Shown here piece after piece: positions 3,852 to 5,864 of a stretch of 64,000 nt of DNA; the first letter of the stretch is position 1, and each line of letters opens with the position of its first letter. The stretch is from NCBI RefSeq assembly GCF_030688855.1, contig NZ_JAUYZK010000005.1, positions 62,001 to 126,000 of the forward strand, written 5' to 3'. The position numbers were made by a program, and so were the translations under genes. The DNA is from Helicobacter cappadocius. GTDB lineage: Bacteria > Campylobacterota > Campylobacteria > Campylobacterales > Helicobacteraceae. The notes beneath the pieces were generated by a model, which made no database searches, was not told the DNA's origin, and saw only the letters and a program-made list of their open reading frames with translations.

Positions 3852-5864
3852 TTATTTGATAATATGACCTTTTATCAAAAGATATAAACTCAAATCGTCG
3901 AGTTCGTTTTGTTTTTGGTATATTTCCTTTGCTAAATCCTCATCATTTTCTATATTTCTCTTTTGTGCGGTGGTGGTAAAATACTCCAAGCCAAAATCTG
4001 GTGTGTATAGAAATTGTTCATTTCCTATTACTTCAAAACCTAATGCTATTTTATTTCTTTGAAATGATAGTGTGTGATTATTGCTAAAAAGTGGTGTTCC
4101 AAAACTGTGATACACGAAACCTTTTGGAGAAACTAACTCTACAATAGTGGGAGTAATGTCAATATGCGATCCAATATTGGCAAGTTGTTTTGGTGATAGC
4201 ACAGGAGAGTATAGGATGAATGGTACAGTATGTGTAATGCTTGGTTTGTTTGTAGGAATTGGGGAAATTCTACCGTAATGATCAGCTGTAATTACAAATA
4301 ACGAATCCGGAAAAACTTGAGACATTTTTAAAATAAAATGGGTAACTTGTTTATCATACCACCAAATATGTCCTAGAATATTTGCATCCATTCCGTTGGT
4401 TATTTTATTTTTTGGAAAATTTTCTTTCCAAAAATTCTGTATTTTCTGTATTGGAACATCAAAATAATTCAAATCAACATCATAAGGAGGGTGTACAGAA
4501 CTTGTCATTATCATATTGAAAGTTGGTTTTGAGCTAAGAGAAACTTTTTGTCCAATAAAATCAAACAAAATATTATCGTGAACACCCCATTCGTTTTGTA
4601 TATGTTTTTGATAATTTTTGCCTTTGGCAAATTTTAGCACATTGATCGCATCATATGTTTTGTCAAAACCTTCAATTGTTGCAATTTTTGCAAATTCTCC
4701 CCATACGCTATAGCCACCATAATAAAATGTACTTTCATAACCTAGTTGATGGAAGATATTGCCCGGTGCAGTTTCAAATAATGAAAAACGTCCTAATAAT
4801 TTATAAAGTAAAAAATCAGTTTGAGGTATTCCTGTGAGCTGAACTCCTAGGCTTCTGGTGGTGCAGGGTGCATTTTCCAAAAAATGTGCTAATTTGAATC
4901 CGTGTTTATTATCTATGAGGGATTTTAATCCTGATGTCAGACCTATTTTGTCAAATACAGGATCAAATGCCCAGTCGCTAAAACTTTCAGATATGATGTA
5001 AAAAATATGTTTGATTTGAACATTTGATGTATTGGTGCTTGTGTGGGAAATGAATGGATAAATATCTAATGGAGCTCGGGGGGGGGGGGTAATATTAAAG
5101 TAGTTTTGAGCGATTTTAAGCTCTTTTTCTGTAGAAAAATTCATTTTTGCTAGAGATTTATTATCGTTAAAACTTCCTAAGACTTTGTAAAGATTTCTAA
5201 GAAAACCATGTTGAGTGCGTTTAAGAAAAACATCCTTGGGGGGCAATAAGGTATCATCAAGTTTGTTTTTTACGCTCAATGTATAAAGTAACGCACAAAT
5301 GTTGAGCACACCAATAAAAACAATAACCATATAAACGGATTTTTTAGCAATGGTCAAAAAACATTCAAAAATTTTTAATGTTTTTTTAAAAAAAATACAA
5401 TAGGCAATACTTCCAATTATCCAAATAAGAATTTTGATTATCACTCCATACTGTCCGCTAAAGCCAGTTTTGATGATTGCTATAGTATCGTTATTTATGA
5501 ATTCAAAGAGCGTAGTATTAAAACCATCTGTGTAGATTTGATAAAATAACATTTCAGAAATACCCAAAAATAAGCAAAGTGCAAAAATAATATATGCGTA
5601 AATATTAGAAAATCTAGCATATGAGGGAAACAAGATAATGAATTCACTTATTACTAAATAAATTATGGCGAAAAATGCTATATATCGATTATCATACTGC
5701 AGACCTATGCCCAAATTCTTTATTACTTCATAAAATCCAACATCTCCCATGAAATGTTCGTATATTCCTACATATAAGACAAAACTAACACGTATGATAA
5801 AAAGTAAAAATATTAAAAATAATGTAAAAACAATCGTTTTTGCTATTGGGTTTAAAAACTTCAT
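3852..5864 (-). CDS. Membrane-anchored sulfatase-fold transferase (LTA synthase / phosphoglycerol transferase-like), phase-variable
   Basis: A 670-aa protein with about five N-terminal membrane helices (within residues 1-200) and a periplasmic alkaline-phosphatase/sulfatase-fold domain from residue 285 on. Landmarks: ISESFSDW at 291-298, the TTRS segment at 335-338 where the LtaS family places its nucleophilic Thr, ADHYGR, and SHIDITPTIVEL near the end. The family transfers phosphoglycerol or phosphoethanolamine from phospholipid onto surface glycans or lipids; the acceptor is unknown. It resembles LtaS/OpgB more than the EptA/EptC group. A run of 12 G on the plus strand (5078-5089) encodes Pro260-262 in the linker between the two parts. 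The tract is in frame here, so the gene reads ON. Confidence 0.85.
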   Translation of the reverse strand: MKFLNPIAKTIVFTLFLIFLLFIIRVSFVLYVGIYEHFMGDVGFYEVIKNLGIGLQYDNRYIAFFAIIYLVISEFIILFPSYARFSNIYAYIIFALCLFLGISEMLFYQIYTDGFNTTLFEFINNDTIAIIKTGFSGQYGVIIKILIWIIGSIAYCIFFKKTLKIFECFLTIAKKSVYMVIVFIGVLNICALLYTLSVKNKLDDTLLPPKDVFLKRTQHGFLRNLYKVLGSFNDNKSLAKMNFSTEKELKIAQNYFNITPPPRAPLDIYPFISHTSTNTSNVQIKHIFYIISESFSDWAFDPVFDKIGLTSGLKSLIDNKHGFKLAHFLENAPCTTRSLGVQLTGIPQTDFLLYKLLGRFSLFETAPGNIFHQLGYESTFYYGGYSVWGEFAKIATIEGFDKTYDAINVLKFAKGKNYQKHIQNEWGVHDNILFDFIGQKVSLSSKPTFNMIMTSSVHPPYDVDLNYFDVPIQKIQNFWKENFPKNKITNGMDANILGHIWWYDKQVTHFILKMSQVFPDSLFVITADHYGRISPIPTNKPSITHTVPFILYSPVLSPKQLANIGSHIDITPTIVELVSPKGFVYHSFGTPLFSNNHTLSFQRNKIALGFEVIGNEQFLYTPDFGLEYFTTTAQKRNIENDEDLAKEIYQKQNELDDLSLYLLIKGHIIK
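5078..5089. repeat. 12-base poly-G (poly-C in the gene) slippage tract
   Basis: Twelve consecutive G on the plus strand, by far the longest G/C homopolymer in this AT-rich window. It sits inside the sulfatase-fold gene at codons 259-263. Gain or loss of one base would cut off the whole catalytic domain. Tracts of this length are the usual phase-variation switch in Helicobacter and Campylobacter. Confidence 0.9.

Follow-up and report, generated by a model that had tools for sequence, protein, structure and literature searches.

The stretch of DNA analyzed here, 64,000 nucleotides from Helicobacter cappadocius (hereafter, the window), contains a minus-strand gene at positions 3852 to 5864 that carries 12 consecutive C residues within its coding sequence. 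The gene encodes a putative sulfatase-fold transferase resembling the lipoteichoic acid (LTA) synthase LtaS. This raises the question of whether the run switches the enzyme on and off and, if so, which envelope component is modified. Judging from the sequence and its comparison with homologues, we consider it quite probable that this gene is a translational contingency locus by virtue of its C12 run.

A C12 run in the linker of a sulfatase-fold gene

The open reading frame (ORF) is intact and encodes 670 amino acids. The run is read as G12 at window positions 5078 to 5089 and as C12 in the gene, where it spans codons 259 to 263 (ACC CCC CCC CCC CGA, encoding T-P-P-P-R) and is in frame in the assembly. 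Hydropathy analysis revealed five membrane segments, the last of which ends near residue 200, and helices were also present in a low-confidence structural model of this N-terminal part (residues ~1 to 200, positions 5265 to 5864). The Sulfatase domain covers residues 286 to 578 (positions 4131 to 5009), which places the run in the linker between the membrane part and the catalytic part. The two alternative reading frames terminate 3 and 29 codons past the run, so that a one-base change in this coding run would truncate the product and leave a membrane stub without an enzyme. The first-pass annotation of this DNA had described the run, its position between the two parts, and the effect of a one-base change in the same way, and the sequence, ORF, hydropathy, and Pfam analyses confirmed this description. 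Its statement that the window has no other G/C run longer than seven also proved correct, the second longest being G7 at 24453.

From base composition alone, G/C runs of at least 12 are expected about 5e-5 times per 64 kb and about 0.001 times per genome. The C12 run encodes the sole PPP motif among the 47 ORFs of at least 200 amino acids in the window, and CCC accounts for 12% of the proline codons there.

The gene product resembles LtaS-type transferases

Analysis of the protein sequence revealed a match to the Pfam Sulfatase family (PF00884) on residues 286 to 578 (1.1e-30; 107.5 bits versus a cut-off of 25), which assigns the product to the alkaline phosphatase/sulfatase-fold superfamily. 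A profile built from 39 homologues matched Vibrio VP1736 (Protein Data Bank entry 3lxq; 1.8e-20), Listeria LtaP and LtaS, and the Bacillus LtaS2 chain 2w8d. A Foldseek search with the low-confidence model retrieved the same group and, in addition, EptC and GacH. Residues E293, T335, W388, H458, D528, and H529 align to the LtaS active site and are nearly invariant in the family. By comparison with LtaS structures, they would correspond to the threonine nucleophile, the metal-binding E/D/H residues, and the tryptophan and histidine at the glycerol-phosphate site of LtaS-type phosphoglycerol transferases.

The Gram-positive LtaS/LtaP enzymes and Vibrio VP1736 therefore share with the window protein the sulfatase-fold domain and its aligned active-site residues, and LtaS also shares its plan of five transmembrane (TM) helices. 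They differ from it in their low identity, ~14 to 20% to the LtaS/LtaP and VP1736 structures in the fold search. Two more specific assignments were rejected. The protein scored 30.9 bits against a cut-off of 970 for lipoteichoic acid synthase (NCBIfam equivalog NF053595) and 25.8 bits against a cut-off of 572 for OpgB/phosphoglycerol transferase I (PRK12363). Because these equivalog cut-offs are far from reached, the gene was not filed as LtaS or OpgB. As far as sequence can tell, the product probably acts in the manner of a phosphoglycerol transferase or a related enzyme, and the profile and fold matches support the earlier label of an LtaS/phosphoglycerol-transferase-like gene.

Homologues carry runs of their own

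A homologue was present in 66 of 121 Helicobacteraceae genomes, and the family comprises 69 members. In a quick tree, the window gene paired with one gene of genome G002 (SH-aLRT, 100), apart from the other copies of the genus. This partner, 56 to 57% identical to the window gene, is its sole close orthologue; a search of seven genomes of the genus recovered the paralogue that the two represent (copy A) in these two. The source genome (G000) carries a second paralogue, copy B (G000:C12:48910-50919), which has no run.

G/C runs of at least nine were found in 7 of the 69 family members, the window gene included. In G002, copy A contains G12 near the fifth membrane helix and is out of frame, and copy B contains G10 in the TM1-TM2 loop. 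The G028 gene has G11 in the TM1-TM2 loop, and the G004 gene has C9 near the C terminus, where it alters the last residues. Two g9 species, G014 and G044, both carry C11 at the same position in the linker, out of frame in G014 and in frame in G044. Counted by eye from run positions and the tree, these data suggest at least six independent gains of a run in the family. Where a copy is clearly out of frame, as in G002 and G014, the coding sequence is open up to the run and again beyond it, with the break at the run itself. The residues aligned to the catalytic site are retained in these copies, except that W388 is replaced by Y in G002. The comparison thus strengthens the phase-variable reading of the first-pass annotation through apparently independent runs in homologues and frameshifts at the run. 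That annotation had also named absence of the run from all close relatives without a frame change as evidence against the reading; the sole orthologue does lack this run but has one of its own and is out of frame.

The annotation had further proposed that a tract in the linker, rather than near the start codon, would keep the membrane stub expressed. This proposal was not supported, because among the homologues the runs are scattered over the gene and occur in the TM1-TM2 loop, at the fifth membrane helix, in the linker, or close to the C terminus. The position of the run looks permissive rather than chosen.

The run might instead tune the enzyme, with changes of three C residues altering the number of linker prolines and hence activity rather than turning the gene on or off. 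In-frame changes can matter, since in Neisseria PptA an in-frame 11G tract, which adds one glycine compared with 8G, is associated with loss of activity (PMC3656113). Slips of a single base should occur more often, however, and would end the protein, and neither the G014 nor the G002 copy is in frame. We regard such tuning as quite improbable.

Family copies in G122 (L115, ~2590) and G139 (L131, ~2790) have frameshifts located away from G/C runs of at least seven, which reflect either sequencing errors or decay. In G014, two neighbouring sulfatase-fold genes (L149 1-2938, G014:C1) each contain G11 near the 3' end, an arrangement that resembles the C-terminal phase variation of H. canadensis (PMC2823697).

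Long G/C runs are numerous in the source genome

The source genome (1.75 Mb, 33 contigs) is congeneric with Helicobacter sp. 11S02596-1, 13S00482-2, and 13S00477-4. These three strains came from lizards (PMC5566214), and we infer a reptile host for the source genome as well. G/C runs were inventoried by pattern search and from fetched regions. The genome contains 46 G/C runs of at least 8, several of them of at least 12, so that C12 is nothing exceptional here. For 37 runs, including that of the window, one side holds a reading frame of at least 90 amino acids; by automatic reading, 21 of these genes were in frame and 16 out of frame, runs near 3' ends being ambiguous. The run-bearing genes that Pfam could identify are mostly of classic phase-variable classes; they include DNA methylases, an HsdS domain, an alpha-1,3-fucosyltransferase, family 2 and family 8 glycosyltransferases, a number of methyltransferases, and an outer membrane protein of the Helicobacter type. 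The window gene is thus one of many phase-variable candidates in this genome, and the set as a whole is typical.

The same inventory bears on whether the length of the run is an assembly artefact. Homopolymer lengths can be miscalled in a consensus, and such errors could yield part of the 16 out-of-frame genes. The window copy is in frame, though, an outcome with a one-in-three chance if the error were random, and the separate assemblies of relatives are likewise rich in such runs. A wrong consensus length at this gene is highly improbable.

Some of the runs in the source genome are clustered, with seven in ~15 kb (G000:C23:43868-58415, L091) and four in ~11 kb (G000:C10, L086). The genes in these clusters encode specificity-subunit-like, AMP-binding, formyltransferase, short-chain dehydrogenase, and methyltransferase-like proteins, and about half of them are out of frame.

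Most family members adjoin Kdo hydrolase-like genes

In H. pylori, HP0579 and HP0580 form the 3-deoxy-D-manno-octulosonic acid (Kdo) hydrolase (PMC12342981), and strains without Kdo hydrolase are very sensitive to polymyxin B (PMC5371381). HP0578 is annotated as an LTA synthase family protein (PMC9927306) and lies within the predicted operon HP0584-HP0578 (PMC13367063). The HP0578, HP0579, and HP0580 assignments follow gene order and these annotations, and on that basis HP0578 belongs to the same family as the window gene; the pylori-type members are ~40% identical. In 45 of the 69 family members, the gene lies 0 to 175 bp downstream of an HP0579-like gene or of its HP0580-like neighbour, which encodes a BNR-repeat protein. 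These 45 include copy B of the source genome, which follows pyrC, KdoH2-like, and KdoH1-like genes (L088 4908-9715, G000:C12). The window copy, a paralogue of the H. pylori HP0578 type, is not linked to KdoH1- or KdoH2-like genes. The pylori-type copies differ from it in being linked and in lacking runs: none of the 33 genus g6 members examined had a G/C run of at least nine.

The linkage of the family to Kdo hydrolase suggests a shared role in modification of lipopolysaccharide (LPS) and an LPS-related substrate. LPS is the most likely target because most family members adjoin Kdo hydrolase genes, and an LPS-related acceptor for the window enzyme is plausible. The tight linkage also points to a testable role in LPS modification for the poorly studied HP0578 family. 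More speculatively, this family may constitute an unrecognized LPS-modifying transferase that acts alongside Kdo hydrolase, with unlinked copies in lizard-type and some other Helicobacter placed under independently gained homopolymer switches and the LPS core or lipid A decorated in a phase-variable manner. We put this wider proposal forward as possible but doubtful.

Runs of at least nine were more common in copies located off Kdo hydrolase genes than in copies beside them (5 of 24 versus 2 of 45; Fisher P 0.045, uncorrected for relatedness). This distribution would fit a neutral run in a redundant paralogue, that is, a spare copy whose loss costs little and which is drifting toward a pseudogene. 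Helicobacter is not known to possess classical mismatch repair, so that long G/C runs would form and be maintained in genes that the cell can lose at little cost. The weakness of the family-wide enrichment is also consistent with neutrality. Against it, the window ORF is otherwise intact with its catalytic residues kept, the visible break in the orthologue falls at the orthologue's own run, and C11 is retained at the same codons in the two g9 species despite divergence of the surrounding linker. A neutral origin is therefore unlikely, and we favor the contingency locus.

Several points weigh against this contingency reading or against its extension to LPS. The run length of the window gene is known from one assembly, representing one genome of the species, and the evidence is cross-species only. 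Given genome-wide run densities, the family shows 7 runs versus 4.0 expected over 69 genes, a difference without statistical significance (P 0.11); the stronger excess in the three run-bearing genera (7 versus 1.1 expected, P 2e-4) concerns genera chosen post hoc. The run statistics are supportive, not conclusive. The AlphaFold model was computed from a six-row alignment and has a mean pLDDT of 49, and only its family-level fold matches were used. Finally, the window copy lies away from Kdo hydrolase genes and is tied to LPS by its family only.

Proposed mechanism and known parallels

In the proposed mechanism, C residues would be gained or lost through slipped-strand mispairing at replication, and run length would be expected to vary in the population. 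Lengths congruent to 12 modulo 3 would give the full enzyme, differing only in the number of linker prolines; with all other lengths, translation would end 3 or 29 codons on, and the product would retain its membrane helices but lack the catalytic domain. The enzyme is likely to be an inner-membrane transferase whose catalytic domain lies in the periplasm. It would transfer a phospho-alcohol group to a glycan or lipid of the envelope: phosphoglycerol, judging by its nearest characterized relatives, or possibly phosphoethanolamine. LPS would be the most likely acceptor, and switching would then change the cell surface. Regulation of the RepG kind, through binding to G repeats, was dismissed: the transcript of this gene would contain C rather than G, and in mid-gene.

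This kind of switch is already familiar, and the window gene adds a member. The pilin phosphorylcholine transferase gene pptA of Neisseria meningitidis belongs to a different subfamily from the window gene. It likewise encodes a phospho-group transferase with a coding G/C run, and its in-frame length effect presents a further possibility; it differs in its substrate and in that its run encodes glycine rather than proline, and switching has been demonstrated for pptA and is predicted for the window gene (PMC3656113). The Neisseria lptA/eptA gene, with a phase-variable poly-T tract (PMC6111236), also places a membrane transferase, in this case for phosphoethanolamine, under translational phase variation, but the enzyme acts on lipid A and is of the EptA rather than the LtaS type. 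In Campylobacter, the PhasomeIt catalogue lists N149_0993 (G8-9), a putative phase-variable gene of a related class annotated as a phosphoglycerol transferase (PMC6321876); it differs in run length, and the likeness rests on annotation. Our literature search found no paper on phase variation of the HP0578-type family of Helicobacter, and the H. canadensis tables name no sulfatase or phosphoglycerol transferase. The window gene would thus add an envelope phosphotransferase, paralleled in Neisseria, to the likely contingency genes of Helicobacter.

Neighbouring features

A further run, G14 (G000:C29:57405-57418; L096 10906), is located 4.6 kb before the window. It lies directly past the stop codon of one ORF and ~110 bp ahead of the start of the next, a fragment for which no Pfam match was found; it is possibly a promoter-type switch.

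The window gene itself is divergent from a gene for an OmpR-type response regulator (6302 to 6970), which is followed by a histidine kinase gene (to 8195). The intergenic region spans 5865 to 6301, and regulation shared with this regulator/kinase pair is possible.
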